A DNA stretch of 64,000 nt from Ectopseudomonas mendocina (GTDB taxonomy: Bacteria; Pseudomonadota; Gammaproteobacteria; Pseudomonadales; Pseudomonadaceae). Positions within the stretch are counted from its first letter, which is position 1, and every line of letters begins with the position of its first letter. Of the stretch, positions 924 through 35,131 are shown one piece after another. The position numbers and the translations under genes were made by a program. The notes beneath the pieces were generated by a model. The model was given only the letters and a program-made list of their open reading frames with translations, had not been told where the DNA came from and did not search any database. Location of the stretch: NCBI RefSeq assembly GCF_007049795.1, contig NZ_SCFY01000013.1:62001-126000 (forward strand). Reading direction: 5' to 3'.

Positions 924-2540
924 TTAAAATCTCGCGACGCCGAAGCTGCTCTTCTTCAGTGGTCGCAGGTTGGCTTCGGCGCAGATATCCAGCAAAAAGC
1001 CCAGCAGCTTGCGCGTATCGCGTGGGTCGATCAGGCCGTCGTCCCACAGGCTGGCGGTGCCGTACAGCGCGGTAGACTGGCTGTCGAGCTTCTGTGCGGT
1101 CACGGTTTCCAGCATGTCGAGCATCTTCGGATCGGCTTCCTTGCCTTCCTTGGCGTGCTTGTCCTCGGTGACGATGCGCAGCACCTTGCCGGCCTGGGCG
1201 CCGCCCATCACGGCGGTGCGGCTGTTGGGCCAGGCGAAGATGAAGCGTGGGTCGAGGCCACGGCCGCACATGGCGTAGTTGCCGGCGCCGTAGGAGCCGC
1301 CGACGACGATGGTGAGCTTGGGCACGGTGGCGTTGGCCACGGCCTGGATCATCTTCGAGCCGTGCTTGATCACGCCGTTTTGTTCCGATTCCGTCCCGAC
1401 CATAAAGCCGGTGGTGTTGTGGAAGAACAGGATCGGCGTGTTGCTTTGCTCGCACAGCTGGATGAACTGCGCTGCCTTGGCCGCACCCTGCGGGGTGATC
1501 GGGCCGTTGTTGCCGATGAAGCCGCAGGCCTGACCTTCGATCTGCAGGTGGCCGCAGACGGTCTGGCTGTCGAACTCGTTCTTGAAGTCGAGGAGCTCCG
1601 AGCCGTCAGCGATGCGCGCGATGATCTCGCGCACGTCGTAGGGCTTCTTGGCGTCGGCCGGCACCAGGCCGAGCAGCTCCTCGGCCGGGTACAGCGGCTC
1701 GCGCCAGCTTTTCGCCGGGCGCGCCGGCAACTGTTGATTCCATGGCAGCATGCCCAGGATCTCGCGCGCCAGGCGTACACCGTCGGCGTCGTTCTCAGCC
1801 AGGTACTCGGCGGTGCCGGCGACCTGGGCGTGCATCTCGGCGCCGCCGAGTTGCTCGTCGGTGGCGATCTCGCCGGTGGCGGCTTTCAGCAGAGGCGGGC
1901 CGGCGAGGAACATCTTGGCCTTGCCGCGCACCACCACCACGTAATCCGACAGGCCGGGCTGGTAGGCCCCGCCAGCGGTGCTGGAGCCATGTACCACGGT
2001 GATCTGCGGCAGGCCCATGGCGGACATGCGCGCCTGGTTGGCGAAGCCGCGTGCCCCTTCGACGAAAATGTCGGCGGCGTAGTTGAGGTTGGCGCCGCCG
2101 CTCTCGGCCAGGGTCACCACCGGCAGCTTGTTCTCGAAGGCGATCTGCTGCAGGCGCAGCGACTTCTTCAGGCCCGTGGGGGAGATGGTGCCGCCCTTGA
2201 TCGCGCTGTTGTTGGCGATCACCAGGCAACGTACGCCGGCGATGTAGCCGATGCCGGCGATCAGGCCACCGCCGGCCTGGCTGCCGTCCTTGTCGTCGTG
2301 CAGCTTGTAGCCGGCCAGCGAAGACAGTTCGAGGAACGGCGCGCCGGCATCGAGCAGCAGGTTGATGCGTTCACGCGGCAGCAACTGGCCGCGCTTCTCG
2401 AACTTGGCTTTGGCTTCCTGCGCCTTGTCGAGCACCTTCTGCTCGACGTCGCGGAAGGTCGCGATGGCTGCCAGCATAGCTTCGCGGTTCTGCGCGAAGG
2501 CTTCGCCATGGACATCGATTTCCGATTGGATCACGGGCAT
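924..2540 (-). CDS. atuC: Geranyl-CoA carboxylase beta (carboxyltransferase) subunit AtuC
   Basis: 538-residue biotin-dependent carboxyltransferase. Both crotonase-like halves are visible: the N-terminal half with LAESGGANLNYAADIFVEG and VHGSSTAGGAYQPGLSDY, the C-terminal half with NNGPITPQGAAKAAQFIQLC and VVGGSYGAGNYAMCGRG. These are the signatures of methylcrotonyl/geranyl-CoA carboxylase beta subunits. It would transfer carboxyl from biotin (on AtuF, not in this window) to geranyl-CoA, giving isohexenyl-glutaconyl-CoA. Choosing geranyl-CoA over methylcrotonyl-CoA rests on the atu neighbourhood. The start lies 4 bases after the atuB stop, so the two genes are probably co-translated. Confidence 0.92.
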   Translation of the reverse strand: MPVIQSEIDVHGEAFAQNREAMLAAIATFRDVEQKVLDKAQEAKAKFEKRGQLLPRERINLLLDAGAPFLELSSLAGYKLHDDKDGSQAGGGLIAGIGYIAGVRCLVIANNSAIKGGTISPTGLKKSLRLQQIAFENKLPVVTLAESGGANLNYAADIFVEGARGFANQARMSAMGLPQITVVHGSSTAGGAYQPGLSDYVVVVRGKAKMFLAGPPLLKAATGEIATDEQLGGAEMHAQVAGTAEYLAENDADGVRLAREILGMLPWNQQLPARPAKSWREPLYPAEELLGLVPADAKKPYDVREIIARIADGSELLDFKNEFDSQTVCGHLQIEGQACGFIGNNGPITPQGAAKAAQFIQLCEQSNTPILFFHNTTGFMVGTESEQNGVIKHGSKMIQAVANATVPKLTIVVGGSYGAGNYAMCGRGLDPRFIFAWPNSRTAVMGGAQAGKVLRIVTEDKHAKEGKEADPKMLDMLETVTAQKLDSQSTALYGTASLWDDGLIDPRDTRKLLGFLLDICAEANLRPLKKSSFGVARF

Positions 2541-2544
2541 CGCC

Positions 2545-3414
2545 TTACTCCTGATCTTTCAGTACGTCGGGCACGTAGGCCCGGTGGAAACCGTTGTAGG
2601 ACTCGCTGTTTTTCGCCTTGCCCAGCGTCCAGGCACGGGTGCCCTGGCTGGCGGCGCCATCGATGCGGACGGTGTTGCCACTGATGAAGTTGGCGCCGGG
2701 GCTGAGCAGGAAGACGATGGCCGCGGCGACCTCGGACTCGGTGCCGATGCGTTGCAGCGGCACGTGATCCTTGAGGTTGCGGATCATGTTCTTCATCGAC
2801 TCGGGGTAGGTGTCCATGCCACTGGAGGCGATCCAGCCCGGCGCCACGGCGTTGACCCGCACGCCGGCGTGGCCCCACTCGTAGGCGGCGGTCTTGGTGA
2901 AGTTCTCCATGCCAGCGCGTGCGGCGCCGGAGTGGCCCATGCCGGGCATGCCGCCCCACATGTCGGCGAGCATGTTGACGATGCTGCCGCCGTGCTTGCT
3001 CATGCTCTGCAGGAAGACTTCCTTGGCTACCAGAAAGCCGCCAACCAGATTGGTGCGTACCACGGTCTCGAAGCCTTTCTGGTTGATGCCGATCAGCGGC
3101 GCGGGGAACTGGCCGCCAGCATTGTTCACAAGCTGGTGGATGCGCCCGCGTTCCCTGATCACCGCAGCGATCATGGCCTTCACGGCTTCTTCGTCGCGGA
3201 TGTCGCAGACTTGGAAGCTGGCGCTGCCACCGTCCTCGGTGATCTCGGCGCAGGTCTTCTCCAGCTTTTCCTGCTTGCGCCCGACCAGCACCACATGAGC
3301 GCCCAGATGGGCCAGCTCGTGGGCCACGCAGCGACCGATGCCGCTGCCACCACCGGTGACCAGAATGGTCTGTTCATTGAACAGGCCAGGTTTGAATACG
3401 GAGTCGTAGCTCAT
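2545..3414 (-). CDS. atuB: Short-chain dehydrogenase/reductase AtuB
   Basis: 289-residue SDR. The start chosen (MSYDSVFKPGLF) has an AGGAC ribosome-binding site about 9 bases upstream; a longer frame upstream lacks one. The Rossmann motif TGGGSGIG and the NNAGG motif are present. The usual catalytic YxxxK is absent: the site reads HSGAARAG, so Tyr is replaced by Ser and Lys by Arg. From memory, that octapeptide and the following EWGHAGVRVNAVAPG are characteristic of the peroxisomal trans-2-enoyl-CoA / 2,4-dienoyl-CoA reductase branch. AtuB is commonly described as a citronellol/citronellal dehydrogenase; the sequence fits an acyl-CoA-level reductase better. The atu assignment from gene order is firm; the reaction is not. 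Confidence 0.88.
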   Translation of the reverse strand: MSYDSVFKPGLFNEQTILVTGGGSGIGRCVAHELAHLGAHVVLVGRKQEKLEKTCAEITEDGGSASFQVCDIRDEEAVKAMIAAVIRERGRIHQLVNNAGGQFPAPLIGINQKGFETVVRTNLVGGFLVAKEVFLQSMSKHGGSIVNMLADMWGGMPGMGHSGAARAGMENFTKTAAYEWGHAGVRVNAVAPGWIASSGMDTYPESMKNMIRNLKDHVPLQRIGTESEVAAAIVFLLSPGANFISGNTVRIDGAASQGTRAWTLGKAKNSESYNGFHRAYVPDVLKDQE

Positions 3415-3479
3415 TGTTGTTGTCCTTCGACCTTGCCGTGGGCACCACCATGTCAAGGTGGTGCGCTATTAATCAGGTT

Positions 3480-3548
3480 GTAGGGTGGAAAACCGCGAAG
3501 CGTTTTCCGCCAGGAGCCGGTGGATGGAGGAAGCGTCATCCACCCTAC
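3480..3548. repeat. Inverted repeat between atuA and atuB, overlapping the atuA stop
   Basis: Outer arms GTAGGGTGGA and its complement TCCACCCTAC, with internal sub-hairpins (GGAAAACCGC / GCGTTTTCC). The TAG stop of atuA (3547-3545 on the minus strand) is part of the right-hand arm. Same family as the elements at 872 and 14197 by the GTAGGG/CCCTAC edges. Confidence 0.85.
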
Positions 3549-5332
3549 AAAGTCTTGGCCAATGCGCTGGGCAGCGGAATCGGAAATTCCAGCAACTGCT
3601 GAGCGAACGCCTTGCCCTGCGGGTCGATGCGCAGGCTGGCTACGCCGCCACCGCCCAGCGCGTTTTCCAGCAGGAAGTTGAGGCTGTGGCTGCCCGGCAG
3701 GTACCAGCGGCTGACGCGGCCGTGCTCGGCGTCCAGTGTATGCGCCATCCAGTTGGCCACGGCTTCGGGCGTCAGCGCAGCAGCGATCCATGCCAGGTAT
3801 TCGGGCTTTCTGGCCATCACACCAATGTTGCTGTGGTTGCCCTTGTCGCCGGAGCGGGCCACGGCCAAGCGGATCAGCGGCACGGCCGCGTCGGCTTCGC
3901 CCATCGGTACGGGTAGGGCGGCGGGCGCGCGGAGTTGGGCGGGGTCGAAGGCATCGATCTGGGGCAGGGCGACCGGCTGGCGTTCGCCGTCGATTTCGAC
4001 GCTCAGGGTGCAGGCATTTTTGTCCACCAGGAAGCTGAAAAGGCGGATCACCGGGTAGACGGTGGGGCGGCCTCCGACGATGCCGGTCAGACCCGGCGCC
4101 ATGCCGGTGGCAGCCTGGGCGATCTCGCGGGAGAACAGGATCAGCGCCTCTTTCTTGGCGTGGCGTGCGGCGATCTTCACTACCACTTCGCGGCTGTATT
4201 TGCGGTGAGCATGGACGCCATAGGTGGCTTCGCTGCCGAGCAACTCGACGCTGACCTCCTGGTAACGGCCCCAGCCGCGCTCGGCGAACATCTCTTCGGT
4301 CTTGTTGATGATCGCCTCGGCAACGCGCTCAGCCTTGGCCACGGCATCGATGCCGGCCAGCAGGAAGCTGGCGGTGCAGCGGAAACCGTCCGGGTGCGTG
4401 GCGCTGACCTTGTACTGGTCGGTGGGCGGCACGCCGCGTGCGCCCTGCAGCTGCACGCGGTTGTCACCGACCTGGCTCAGCTCGACCTGGGTGAAGTCGC
4501 AGATCACGTCCGGCAGCAGGTAGGCGCGCGGATCGCCGATCTCGTAGAGCATCTGCTCGCCAACGGTAAAAGGCGTGACCAAGCCGCCGGAACCATCCGG
4601 CTTGGTCACGACGAAACGGCCATCGTCCTCGACTTCGACGATGGGAAAGCCGATGTGCTCGTAGTCCGGCACGTCGCGCCAGTCGGTGAAATTGCCACCG
4701 GTGCACTGCGCGCCGCACTCGATGATGTGCCCGGCCAGCGCGGCCTGGGCCAGCTTGTCGTAGTCGCTCCAGGCCCAGCCGAATTCGTGCACCAGGGCGG
4801 CGCTGACCACGGCGCTGTCGACCACGCGGCCAGTGATGACAATGTCGGCGCCCTGTTCCAGAGCGGCGACGATGCCCGGTGCGCCCAGGTAGGCGTTGAC
4901 CGACACGCAGAAGGGCGGCAGCGCGGCGTCCGTGAACATCTCGCGGATACCGGCCTTGACCAGCTCGCCGAGCTTGGGTTGCAGGTTGTCGCCGTGCAGC
5001 ACGGCGATCTTCAGGTTCACCCCGGCCTGCTCGCAGGCGGCGCTCAGGGCCGCAGCGCAGGCCATTGGGTTGACCCCGCCGGCGTTGCTGATGACGCGGG
5101 TTTTCTTCGCTGCCAGTTCTCCGAGCAGCGGCGCAAGCACCTCGACGAAGTCGCGGGCGTAGCCGTCATCCGGCTTCTTCATGCGCGCACCGGCCATGAT
5201 CGACATGGTGATCTCGGCCAGGTAGTCGAACACCAGATAATCCAGTTCGGCGCCGCGAACCAGTTGAGCGGCAGCGGTGGAGGTGTCGCCCCAGAAAGCG
5301 GAGGCGCAGCCGATGCGTACGGTTTTGGTCAT
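3545..5332 (-). CDS. atuA: Acyclic terpene utilisation protein AtuA
   Basis: 595 residues from the start [20 protein letters not shown], which is the conserved N-terminus of the AtuA family (DUF1446); the open frame extends further upstream but across the operator region, so that extension is unlikely. The body is the long AtuA domain (about 1-450). A smaller C-terminal domain (about 490-590) carries [20 protein letters not shown]. AtuA is required for citronellol/geraniol growth in P. aeruginosa, but its precise chemistry is not settled to my knowledge. It is the first gene of the minus-strand atu operon and is divergent from atuR, with operator-like repeats between. The stop codon lies in an inverted repeat. 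Confidence 0.92.
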
Positions 5333-5374: not shown

Positions 5375-5393
5375 ACCAAGCAAGCGCTTGGTT
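5375..5393. promoter_or_regulatory. Putative AtuR operator, site 1
   Basis: Sequence ACCAAGCAAGCGCTTGGTT, with a palindromic core CAAGCGCTTG, 43 bases upstream of the atuA start. In P. aeruginosa AtuR is reported (from memory) to bind two inverted repeats in exactly this gap. A weaker relative with CAAGCAAG and CAAGCACTTG lies at 5474-5493. Confidence 0.8.
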
Positions 5394-5430: not shown

Positions 5431-5449
5431 GCCCAAGCGCTTGCTTGGT
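5431..5449. promoter_or_regulatory. Putative AtuR operator, site 2
   Basis: Read on the minus strand it is ACCAAGCAAGCGCTTGGGC, 17 of 19 positions identical to site 1 and in opposite orientation. Centre-to-centre distance is about 56 bp. The pair sits between the divergent atuA and atuR starts and could repress both. Confidence 0.8.
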
Positions 5450-5554: not shown

Positions 5555-6178
5555 GTGGACGAACACAGAGCCCAGGCCGTGATGCAGGAACTGGTCGATA
5601 GCGGCCAGGTGACCGATCCGGACAGTGCCCGCGGCAAGCTGTTGCAGATGGCTGCCCACCTGTTCCGCAGCAAGGGTTACGAGCGCACCACGGTGCGTGA
5701 TCTGGCCGCCGCCATTGGTATTCAGTCGGGCAGCATCTTTCATCACTTCAAGAGCAAGGACGAGATTCTGCGCTCGGTGATGGAGGAAACCATCGTCTAC
5801 AACACTGCACTGATGCGCTCCGCGCTGGCAGAGGCGCAAGGCACGCGCGAGCGCTTACTGGCGCTGATCCGCTGCGAGTTGCAGTCGATCATGGGCGGTA
5901 CCGGCGAGGCCATGGCCGTGCTGGTATACGAATGGCGTTCCCTGTCGGACGACGGCCAGGCGCAGGTGCTGGCCTTGCGTGATACCTACGAGCAGATCTG
6001 GCTGGCGGTGCTTGGCGAGGCGCGCGATGCCGGTTATTTCAAGGGCGACCCTTTCATTCAACGGCGTTTTCTCACGGGAGCGCTGAGCTGGACCAACACC
6101 TGGTTCCGCTCGCAAGGGCCGATGAGCCTGGATCAACTGGCCGAAGAAGCGTTGTCATTGGTCTGTAAGGAAGCTTGA
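5555..6178 (+). CDS. atuR: TetR-family repressor AtuR
   Basis: 207 residues from a GTG start preceded by GGGGAGAAG at good spacing. The N-terminal TetR helix-turn-helix is clear (residues about 28-75: LLQMAAHLFRSKGYERTTVR, then IGIQSGSIFHHFKSKDEIL), followed by an all-helical ligand and dimerisation domain. It is divergent from atuA with two near-identical operator repeats in the gap, the arrangement of the terpene repressor AtuR. By family logic the inducer would be a CoA thioester or intermediate of the pathway. A third operator-like copy near 33932 suggests targets outside the cluster. Confidence 0.88.
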   Translation: MDEHRAQAVMQELVDSGQVTDPDSARGKLLQMAAHLFRSKGYERTTVRDLAAAIGIQSGSIFHHFKSKDEILRSVMEETIVYNTALMRSALAEAQGTRERLLALIRCELQSIMGGTGEAMAVLVYEWRSLSDDGQAQVLALRDTYEQIWLAVLGEARDAGYFKGDPFIQRRFLTGALSWTNTWFRSQGPMSLDQLAEEALSLVCKEA

Positions 6179-32708: not shown

Positions 32709-33308
32709 ATGAGCTTCAGCCCTCTGATTCGCCAGTTGATCGATTCTCTGCGCATCCTGCCCGGCGTCGGCCAGAAGACTGCGCAGCGCATGGCGCTGCA
32801 GCTGCTTGAGCGTGATCGCCGTGGCGGTCAGCGTCTGGCGCAGGCGTTGAGTGCGGCGATGGAAGGCGTGGGGCATTGCAAGCGCTGCCGCAGCCTGAGC
32901 GAGGACGAGGTCTGCCAGCTGTGCCTGGACGAGCGGCGTGACGACAGCCTGCTGTGTGTGGTGGAAGGTCCGATGGACGTGCATGCAGTGGAGCAGACCG
33001 GCTTTCGCGGTCGCTACTTCGTGCTCAAGGGGCACCTGTCGCCGCTCGATGGCCTGGGTCCGGAAGCCATCGGTATTCCAGCGCTGCTGGAGCGCATCGA
33101 TGCCGGTGCTTTCAGCGAAGTGATTCTGGCCACCAACCCGACGGTGGAAGGCGAGGCCACGGCGCATTACATCGCCCAGATCCTTGCTGGCAAAGGCCTG
33201 ATCGCTTCGCGTATCGCCCATGGCATGCCACTTGGTGGCGAGCTGGAGTTGGTCGATGGCGGCACACTGGCTCACGCACTGGCCGGTCGGCGCCCGATCA
33301 GTCTCTGA
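32709..33308 (+). CDS. recR: Recombination protein RecR
   Basis: 199 residues from [20 protein letters not shown]; an in-frame start further upstream is ignored because the family begins here. Helix-hairpin-helix ([17 protein letters not shown]), a zinc-binding four-Cys motif ([16 protein letters not shown]), a Toprim domain ([11 protein letters not shown] to [20 protein letters not shown]) and a C-terminal Walker-like segment. It acts with RecF/RecO to load RecA at gaps. It follows ybaB after about 210 bases. Confidence 0.96.
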
Positions 33309-33337
33309 GCCATCAGTCCCTTCTATTCGGAGTGCTT

Positions 33338-33916
33338 GTGATCAACGACACTCTGCGCCGTATTGCCCTGCTGCTTCTGCTTGCAGCGCCCCTGGCCGCA
33401 CAGGCTCAGTGCCCGACCGGGCAGATACAGGTGTGCCTGGGCGGCTCCTGTCTGTGTGTGCCGGATCCCGTGCGTATGCGTGAGGACGGCCTGAACCTGG
33501 CGGCGGCGCGGCTCGAAGCCTGGTTGCTGCAGTCTCGTCAGGCAGCGCTACGCGCTGGCACCGAACCGATCCCTCTGATGATTCGCGCGCAGCTCGCGCC
33601 GTTCTACGACGATGCGTTGCTTGATGAAGTACGCTATCGCGTCGGCATCACCGACGAGATGGACGCCGCCACCGTCATCTTGCAGAACCCCGATGTGCAG
33701 GCCGTAACGCTGGTCGATGTGGTGGTGTTTCGCAGCAGCGATGCCGCCGTAGAGGATGCTGTGCTGTGGGCGCATGAGTTATGGCATGTGCAGCAGTACC
33801 GTGAGTGGGGCACCGATGGCTTCGCCCAGCGCTACACCCGTAATTTCCAGGCAGTGGAAGGGCCGGCCTACGAAATGGGCGAGCGAGTGAGGAAGGCGCT
33901 GCGCGAGCAGAAATGA
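33338..33916 (+). CDS. Secreted zincin-like protein (HELWH motif, DUF4157-like)
   Basis: 192 residues from a GTG with GGAG six bases upstream. The signal peptide ends at about PLAAQA (22). Right after it is a Cys-rich stretch (QCPTGQIQVCLGGSCLCVP). A metal-protease motif HELWH (in VLWAHELWHVQQYREWG, about residue 147) matches the DUF4157 group of putative metallopeptidases, though no further catalytic ligand is certain. A short gap after recR and no neighbours of related function. Role unknown. Confidence 0.78.
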   Translation: MINDTLRRIALLLLLAAPLAAQAQCPTGQIQVCLGGSCLCVPDPVRMREDGLNLAAARLEAWLLQSRQAALRAGTEPIPLMIRAQLAPFYDDALLDEVRYRVGITDEMDAATVILQNPDVQAVTLVDVVVFRSSDAAVEDAVLWAHELWHVQQYREWGTDGFAQRYTRNFQAVEGPAYEMGERVRKALREQK

Positions 33917-33931
33917 AACGCTCGCTTGAAA

Positions 33932-33950
33932 ACCAAGCAAGCGCTAGGTT
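33932..33950. promoter_or_regulatory. AtuR-operator-like site upstream of the acyl-CoA dehydrogenase gene
   Basis: ACCAAGCAAGCGCTAGGTT differs from atu operator site 1 (5375-5393) at one base of 19. It lies 33 bases before the ATG at 33983, a repressor-like position. No copy other than these three was noticed in the window. Confidence 0.72.
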
Positions 33951-33982
33951 AGGGTGGCCAAAATAATAACGGGAGTACCCGC

Positions 33983-35131
33983 ATGGCCGCTGCTCAGCCT
34001 TATTTCGATGAGTCTCACCAATTGGTTCGTGATTCCGTCCGGCGTTTCGTCGAGCGCGAGATCCTGCCGCATATCGACGAGTGGGAGGAGGCCGAGGAAT
34101 TTCCTCGCGAGCTGTACCTCAAGGCCGGCGCGGCGGGCATTCTCGGTATCGGCTACCCGGAACAGTTCGGCGGCAGCCACGAGGGTGATGTGTTCGCCAA
34201 GGTCGCCGCCAGCGAGGCGTTGATGCGCAGTGGCTCGGGCGGGCTGGTGGCCGGGCTGGGTTCGCTGGATATCGGTTTGCCGCCCATCGTCAAATGGGCC
34301 AAGCCCGCCGTACGCGAGCGTGTGGTGCCGCAGGTGCTGGCCGGCGAGAAGATCATGGCGCTGGCGGTGACGGAGCCTTCTGGTGGCTCCGATGTGGCCA
34401 ATCTCAAGACCCGTGCCGTGCGTGATGGCGACCACTACCGCATCAATGGCAGCAAGACCTTCATCACCAGTGGTGTGCGTGCCGATTACTACACGGTCGC
34501 CGTGCGTACCGGTGGCGAGGGCTTTGGCGGCGTCAGCCTGCTGCTGGTGGAGAAGGGTACGCCGGGTTTCACCGTCGGGCGCAAGCTGAAGAAGATGGGC
34601 TGGTGGGCGTCCGACACTGCCGAGCTGTTCTTCGACGATTGCAAGGTGCCGGTGGAGAACCTGATTGGTGTGGAGAACGCCGGCTTCGCCTGCATCATGG
34701 CCAACTTCCAGAGCGAGCGCCTGAGCCTGGCGATCATGGCCAACATGACCGCGCAACTGGCACTCGAAGAGTCGATGAAATGGGCGCGCGAGCGTCAGGC
34801 GTTCGGTAAACCGGTGGGCAAGTTCCAGGTGCTCAAGCACCGTCTGGCCGAGATGGCGACCCAGTTGGAGGTATCGCGTGAGTTCACCTACCGCCAGGCC
34901 GCACAGATGGCGGCTGGCAGAAGCGTGATCAAGGAGATTTCCATGGCCAAGAACTTCGCCACCGATATCGCTGACCGCCTGACCTACGATGCGGTGCAGA
35001 TCATGGGTGGCATGGGTTACATGCGTGAGTCTCTCGTCGAGCGGCTGTACCGCGACAACCGCATTCTCTCCATTGGCGGGGGTACGCGGGAGATCATGAA
35101 CGAGATCATTTCGAAGCAGATGGGTTTGTAG
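33983..35131 (+). CDS. Acyl-CoA dehydrogenase (candidate terpenoyl/fatty-acyl-CoA dehydrogenase)
   Basis: 382 residues, a complete acyl-CoA dehydrogenase. GGGAG lies 8 bases before the ATG. Signatures: MALAVTEPSGGSDVANLKT, FITSGVRADYYTVAVRTGG, the helical C-terminal domain with ARERQAFGKPVGKFQVLKHR, QIMGGMGYMRES and the FAD-contacting TREIMNEIISKQMGL at the end; the catalytic carboxylate cannot be placed with certainty by eye. Gene order after recR matches P. aeruginosa PA1535, an enzyme I recall being linked to citronellyl-CoA oxidation alongside AtuD. An AtuR-type operator upstream supports a role in the terpene regulon. Confidence 0.9.
   Translation: MAAAQPYFDESHQLVRDSVRRFVEREILPHIDEWEEAEEFPRELYLKAGAAGILGIGYPEQFGGSHEGDVFAKVAASEALMRSGSGGLVAGLGSLDIGLPPIVKWAKPAVRERVVPQVLAGEKIMALAVTEPSGGSDVANLKTRAVRDGDHYRINGSKTFITSGVRADYYTVAVRTGGEGFGGVSLLLVEKGTPGFTVGRKLKKMGWWASDTAELFFDDCKVPVENLIGVENAGFACIMANFQSERLSLAIMANMTAQLALEESMKWARERQAFGKPVGKFQVLKHRLAEMATQLEVSREFTYRQAAQMAAGRSVIKEISMAKNFATDIADRLTYDAVQIMGGMGYMRESLVERLYRDNRILSIGGGTREIMNEIISKQMGL

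Follow-up and report, generated by a model that had tools for sequence, protein, structure and literature searches.

The closest described counterparts of the site analysed here are operators of AtuR and of its homologue RdmA. Both proteins bind 13-bp repeats. RdmA negatively regulates the dmg genes and, together with them, serves DSF degradation in P. nitroreducens (PMC9973270). In strain HS-18 of that species the 13-bp repeats are identical and belong to an atu-like cluster that is inducible by DSF; the gel shifts described concern the dmgA promoter, with truncated promoter fragments being shifted just partly and at higher protein amounts, and a PA1535-type gene is not mentioned in the available text of that paper (PMC9973270).

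The closest described counterpart of the gene behind our site is PA1535 of P. aeruginosa, the product of which has been described as a citronellyl-CoA dehydrogenase that is formed on acyclic terpenes and is not essential (abstract quoted in PMC4714473). According to the same source, the protein is present in terpene-grown cells and absent from isovalerate- or succinate-grown cells, has a high citronellyl-CoA dehydrogenase activity but a lower affinity, and accepts octanoyl-CoA as well, while AtuD alone is essential (PMC4714473). A third protein of relevance is the 555-residue product of fadD4 (PA1617), which has been called a terpenoyl-CoA synthetase (PMC8637051) and which, as judged from mutant growth, acts as the principal CoA ligase for both citronellic acid and geranic acid (PMC3667196). 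An operator or regulator for PA1535 or fadD4 does not appear in the available text of PMC9973270, PMC4714473, PMC4412052, PMC8637051, PMC3667196, PMC4847356 and PMC3511530, although the 2008 paper on AtuD and PA1535 and the 2010 paper on AtuR may differ in this respect. The main text of the two fadD4 papers does not discuss control by AtuR: atuRABCDEFGH is named in the introduction only of PMC8637051, and AtuR does not occur in that of PMC3667196.

When set against the atu control region (Foerster-Fromme and Jendrossek 2010, as described in PMC9973270), the site at 33932-33950 in Ectopseudomonas mendocina represents the same palindrome, and the published 13-bp AtuR repeat AGCAAGCGCTTGG is found at 33936-33948 with 12 of 13 bases conserved (one mismatch). 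Further points of likeness are the agreement with atu site 1 in 18 of 19 bases, the overlap with a promoter, and the presence of just one close AtuR in the genome; the points of difference are that the dehydrogenase gene has one copy rather than two about 40 bp apart, that one half-site base is off consensus, and that the gene is unlinked to the cluster. As compared to PA1535, the dnaX-recR neighbourhood is the same and the operator is present there too, with the sequence ACCAAGCAAGCGCTAGGTA in the P. aeruginosa-group strain PA7. Taken as a whole, these and the following data are best explained if the site is a genuine operator of AtuR that would control an accessory citronellyl-CoA dehydrogenase, a reading to which we assign a probability of about 0.9.

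The site and the genes it may connect

The window, by which we mean the complete stretch of 64,000 nucleotides that was analysed, contains the following features of interest.

924-2540, minus strand: atuC, carboxyltransferase subunit of geranyl-CoA carboxylase (PF01039)
2545-3456, minus strand: atuB, short-chain dehydrogenase (PF13561; named by position and family)
3545-5332, minus strand: atuA, first gene of the atu operon (PF07287 AtuA, E 4.7e-151)
5375-5393, plus strand: atu operator site 1 (window match)
5431-5449, minus strand: atu operator site 2 (window match)
5555-6178, plus strand: atuR, TetR-family repressor of 207 aa (PF00440, PF17932)
33926-33931, plus strand: predicted -35 element, TTGAAA, directly adjoining the operator (all 78 unique upstream sequences have the TTG)
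33932-33949 within 33932-33950, plus strand: AtuR-type operator, an 18-bp imperfect palindrome, ACCAAGCAA GCGCTAGGT (window match, 80/80 orthologues, conservation footprint)
33949-33955, plus strand: predicted -10 element, either TTAGGG with a 17-bp spacer or TAGGGT with an 18-bp spacer
33983-35131, plus strand: acyl-CoA dehydrogenase of 382 aa, PA1535 orthologue (PF02771, PF02770, PF00441; PA7 identity and synteny)

A pattern scan of the window identified ACCAAGCAAGCGCTAGGTT as an AtuR-type 19-bp site on the plus strand, which differs at one base from atu site 1 and at three bases from atu site 2. The preliminary description, made from the letters alone, had listed three close sites with just these differences, and this proved correct: no further match with up to three mismatches exists in the window, where 0.01 would be expected, and three sites were reached in none of 100 shuffles. 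Both atu sites are located between atuA and atuR, while the third is found about 28 kb from the cluster and is separated by 32 bases from the ATG of the dehydrogenase gene.

The atuA-atuR region has two copies with a spacing of about 40 bp, while the dehydrogenase gene has a single site. In our judgement, two operator copies are a trait of the atu promoter and no requirement, as fadD4 (see below) likewise has one main site.

The gene order behind atuA fits atuB-G, as Pfam assignments beyond the window, past atuC, revealed the AtuD acyl-CoA dehydrogenase, an enoyl-CoA hydratase, a biotin carboxylase and a second short-chain dehydrogenase. The window-encoded dehydrogenase is 39% identical to this AtuD. 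We regard it as an orthologue of PA1535: it is 90% identical to the protein from PA7 and occurs in the same dnaX-recR setting, an assignment that was tested against PA7 and combines three domains with recR/dnaX synteny. In P. aeruginosa, this dnaX-recR-dehydrogenase block has the locus numbers PA1532-PA1535. E. mendocina differs from PA7 by an extra gene with an eCIS_core domain (PF13699; window 33305-33916) between recR and the dehydrogenase gene; in PA7 a distance of about 135 bp separates the end of the recR match from the dehydrogenase, leaving no room for it.

In the acyl-CoA dehydrogenase family, a Glu/Gly pattern marks the catalytic base of the isovaleryl/long-chain type. An alignment shows that the Glu of an FQxERL stretch is common to the dehydrogenase and AtuD, and that a Gly occurs in an SIGGG stretch; as far as can be read from the protein sequences, these residues would fit a base of this type. 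Citronellyl-CoA activity has been published for PA1535 only and is predicted for the enzyme from E. mendocina.

Conservation of the operator and layout of the promoter

The best 80 of 452 confirmed relatives in a genome collection were used as the orthologue sample. Each of the 80 has, on the same strand, a site with up to three mismatches that is located 28-42 bp ahead of the protein match (the 28-bp value stems from a locus whose protein match starts at residue 3), while no such site occurs elsewhere in those 80 loci (821,485 positions). These loci are from related species and do not represent independent trials, so that kinship inflates this and every other species count. Among the 78 unique upstream sequences, positions 2-14, 16 and 18 of the site are invariant or vary in one row, and position 17 differs in two; free variation inside the operator is confined to positions 15 and 19. 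Most flanking positions vary widely, while the adjoining TTG is invariant.

This pattern bears on the possibility that the match is fortuitous or belongs, as one arm, to a terminator separating the dehydrogenase gene from the gene that precedes it, which we consider to have next to no likelihood. In E. mendocina, a 13-pair hairpin (33917-33945), terminator-like on the minus strand, overlaps the site and could be taken as an argument for a terminator, but its left-arm positions vary among species while the operator and the adjoining TTG do not, and no T run follows the site on the plus strand. A chance match was rejected in view of the expectation of 0.01 sites for the window, the lack of any match in a reversed scan of the genome, and the conservation in 80/80 orthologues.

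On the basis of conservation, a promoter can be predicted in which the operator fills the 17-bp spacer from the conserved TTG of the -35 element to a -10 element of the form T[A/T]..... Of the 78 unique sequences, 42 have TTGAAA and 21 have TTGTAA as the -35 hexamer. The -10 element is weak in E. mendocina and resembles TAAGTT or TAATTT in many other species, and a generic promoter scan found no promoter above threshold in the region upstream of the dehydrogenase.

Position 15 is C in 43, T in 19 and A in 18 of the 80 orthologue sites, and thus deviates from the consensus T of the atu sites in 61 of them, and likewise in E. mendocina, while T is found in all of 30 fadD4 sites. A T at this position would complete the palindrome and, at the same time, an extended -10 TG. 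The affinity at the dehydrogenase operator may be lower because position 15 is off consensus. The -35 element TTGAAA occurs in 1 of 19 sequences with T at position 15 and in 41 of 59 without it (nominal p 6e-7, the related species not being independent), and it is possible that operator position 15 and the -35 element are jointly tuned.

If AtuR is indeed the protein that binds, its dimer would occupy the 18-bp palindrome ACCAAGCAAGCGCTAGGT, thus covering the spacer that separates the -35 (TTGAAA) from the -10 element, and would exclude RNA polymerase. Acyclic terpenes or an intermediate of their breakdown would presumably act as inducer and release AtuR, upon which synthesis of the dehydrogenase would set in along with that of the atu enzymes and of FadD4. 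The enzyme would then oxidise citronellyl-CoA to geranyl-CoA as a partner of AtuD with lower affinity and broader range. With a single, slightly off-consensus site, repression is predicted to be weaker than at atuA.

Co-occurrence with AtuR and the role of the dehydrogenase

An AtuR orthologue (76-98% identical) was found in each of 50 genomes tested out of the 80. Upstream of atuR, the exact 18-bp site ACCAAGCAAGCGCTTGGT occurs in 30/30 loci that were read from these 50 genomes, and a second site with up to three mismatches to the 18-bp consensus is likewise present in 30/30.

A broader survey covered 218 genomes of the family Pseudomonadaceae that were drawn from a larger group, some being shared with the 80 loci, with cut-offs of E up to 1e-120 for the dehydrogenase (the weakest accepted match having 8e-198) and up to 1e-50 for AtuR. 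The dehydrogenase is present in 87 and AtuR in 97 of these genomes, and those having the dehydrogenase all have AtuR (87/87), with AtuR occurring alone in 10 and neither gene in 121 (Fisher 4.7e-50, uncorrected for kinship). The number of sites with up to two mismatches follows the same distribution, with a mean of 4.77 per genome (minimum 3) where both genes are present, 1.5 where only AtuR is found (2 of these 10 genomes having none at all), and 0.31 where AtuR is lacking (at least one site in 31/121, maximum 3), as compared to about 0.22 for a reversed-pattern control; the site pattern was drawn up after the orthologue sites were known, which favours them.

Outside the family, a dehydrogenase with 52-61% identity was detected in 3 of 370 genomes of the class (the own genome excluded), all of which have an AtuR homologue (42-53% identical). 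Two of the three have no site before the dehydrogenase gene, and in the third the contig extends to no more than 11 bases ahead of the gene; the best sites upstream of the three atuR homologues depart from the 18-bp consensus at 1, 3 and 4 positions. It thus looks as if the operator at the dehydrogenase gene is a trait of the Pseudomonadaceae, unless the distant genes are not true orthologues.

Binding of a different TetR-type regulator with the same half-site could be envisaged, as position 15 is unlike the atu sites in the majority of species (61/80) and as a CCAGGC..GCCTGG-type palindrome takes the corresponding position ahead of acs in some genomes. We consider this very improbable, as the dehydrogenase is found in AtuR genomes only and the 13-bp core of the site departs from the published AtuR repeat at a single base. 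A second close AtuR-like protein was looked for in the genome of E. mendocina and rejected: AtuR is the sole close one, the three other matches (E up to 1e-5) being 25-33% identical. Control of the dehydrogenase gene by AtuR, as proposed in the preliminary description, thus gains support at the level of sequence comparison, with a site in 80/80 orthologues that is placed inside a predicted promoter and with a gene that was found in AtuR genomes only (87/87).

The second proposal made there, that the enzyme works beside AtuD on terpenoyl-CoA esters, is borne out in so far as PA1535 has been reported to be a citronellyl-CoA dehydrogenase, but has to be qualified, as that enzyme is non-essential, has a lower affinity and also uses octanoyl-CoA. 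Even with a true AtuR operator, the gene might serve mainly for medium-chain or cis-2-unsaturated fatty acyl-CoA, such as octanoyl-CoA or DSF-type acids, with terpenes as side substrate. The use of octanoyl-CoA and the dispensability of PA1535 for terpene growth (PMC4714473) would be consistent with this, as would the role of RdmA and dmg in P. nitroreducens (PMC9973270) and the altered expression of PA1535 and atu genes upon exposure to cis-2-decenoic acid (PMC4412052). In the latter case, PA1535, PA2885 and PA2887-PA2891 are contained in a table of responding genes, but as this comprises 666 genes and lacks PA1617, the support is weak (PMC4412052). We regard a predominant fatty-acid role as rather unlikely, as the PA1535 protein is found on terpenes, is absent on isovalerate and succinate and is highly active with citronellyl-CoA (PMC4714473), and as the dehydrogenase was not found without AtuR (87/87 with it). 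The assignment as an accessory citronellyl-CoA dehydrogenase, although predicted from sequence alone, agrees well with the published properties of PA1535.

Further sites and the extent of the AtuR regulon

No fourth close copy was noticed in the preliminary description. This is true of the window, but the complete genome of 5.10 Mb in 58 contigs contains 7 sites with up to three mismatches to ACCAAGCAAGCGCTAGGTT, as compared to 0 for the reversed pattern. A scan with the consensus form returned 12 places vs 0, one being the fadD4 site on the other strand and two overlapping at a single place on contig C22. Specificity drops sharply when just the 13-bp core is used, with 482 matches at up to two mismatches vs 136 for its reversed form. 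Sites of comparable quality are thus few, and many equally good sites next to unrelated genes, which had been named as an observation that would speak against AtuR control, were not encountered. The additional sites are as follows.

C17, 6580-6598: 2 mismatches, 33 bp before a fadD4-type gene
C3, 166171-166189: 3 mismatches, 46 bp before acs (ACAS_N)
C6, 84675-84693: 3 mismatches, before an ORF with an LEA_2 domain
C11, 58343: 3 mismatches, inside a gene for a Clp-type ATPase

The match on C11 is probably due to chance. The sequence of the C6 site is also found, identical or nearly so, in some relatives.

The target on C17 is an AMP-binding enzyme of 555 aa, upstream of which are a glycerol-3-phosphate dehydrogenase gene and a gene of the histidine-phosphatase family. 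In PAO1, gpsA is located near PA1617, and by its length and setting the C17 gene fits the fadD4/PA1617 type. In a selection of 30 of the 50 genomes, the operator precedes the fadD4 orthologue with up to three mismatches in 29 and with up to four in all 30, frequent forms being ACCAAGCAAGTGCTTGGT or the perfect palindrome ACCAAGCAATTGCTTGGT. At fadD4 the operator directly follows an AATANT/TATANT -10-like element (27/30) with a TTG upstream of it (25/30). A bound dimer would sit over the transcription start, and occlusion would be the simplest reading at both promoters. The fadD4 site is probably the strongest extension of the finding at the dehydrogenase gene.

For acs the picture is less uniform. 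A site with up to three mismatches at 43-46 bp was found in 8 of 27 loci, of which 25 are from AtuR genomes and 2 from genomes without AtuR, while none of 540 shuffled stretches scored below 5 mismatches. As the remaining 19 loci have no such site, acs is only partly upheld as a core target of AtuR. In some acs loci, a different palindrome (CCAGGC..GCCTGG type) is seen at about the equivalent place. Acetate is released by AtuA (PMC4847356), and its recycling by Acs would make sense.

Several other Pseudomonadaceae genomes have AtuR-type sites near genes for DUF1302-type proteins, some of these being adjacent to a gene for an AMP-binding ligase (as assigned by Pfam for two DUF1302 proteins and one ligase). 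These proteins may possibly be involved in uptake and activation of terpenoid acids. In one genome, a palindromic site is found about 50 bp before a gene resembling flavin-binding monooxygenases.

AtuR appears to run a dispersed regulon that consists of the atu genes, the dehydrogenase gene and fadD4. A more far-reaching version is speculative and in our view rather doubtful: AtuR would be the master of a dispersed regulon spanning the whole route, with fadD4 for activation, the dehydrogenase and the atu core, to which some lineages would add acs and DUF1302 genes, with position 15 setting both the affinity for the repressor and the extended -10 TG, and with selection for a set output.

The operator itself is an ordinary kind of element, and it is well supported that an extra AtuR site adds the accessory dehydrogenase and fadD4 to the AtuR regulon. 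This recasts AtuR from the repressor of a cluster to the controller of a dispersed pathway, with one conserved operator accounting for both the PA1535-type gene and fadD4. By the simple rule that such an operator is found in a genome that also encodes AtuR, further genes for the breakdown of terpenes and DSF may be spotted across Pseudomonas.
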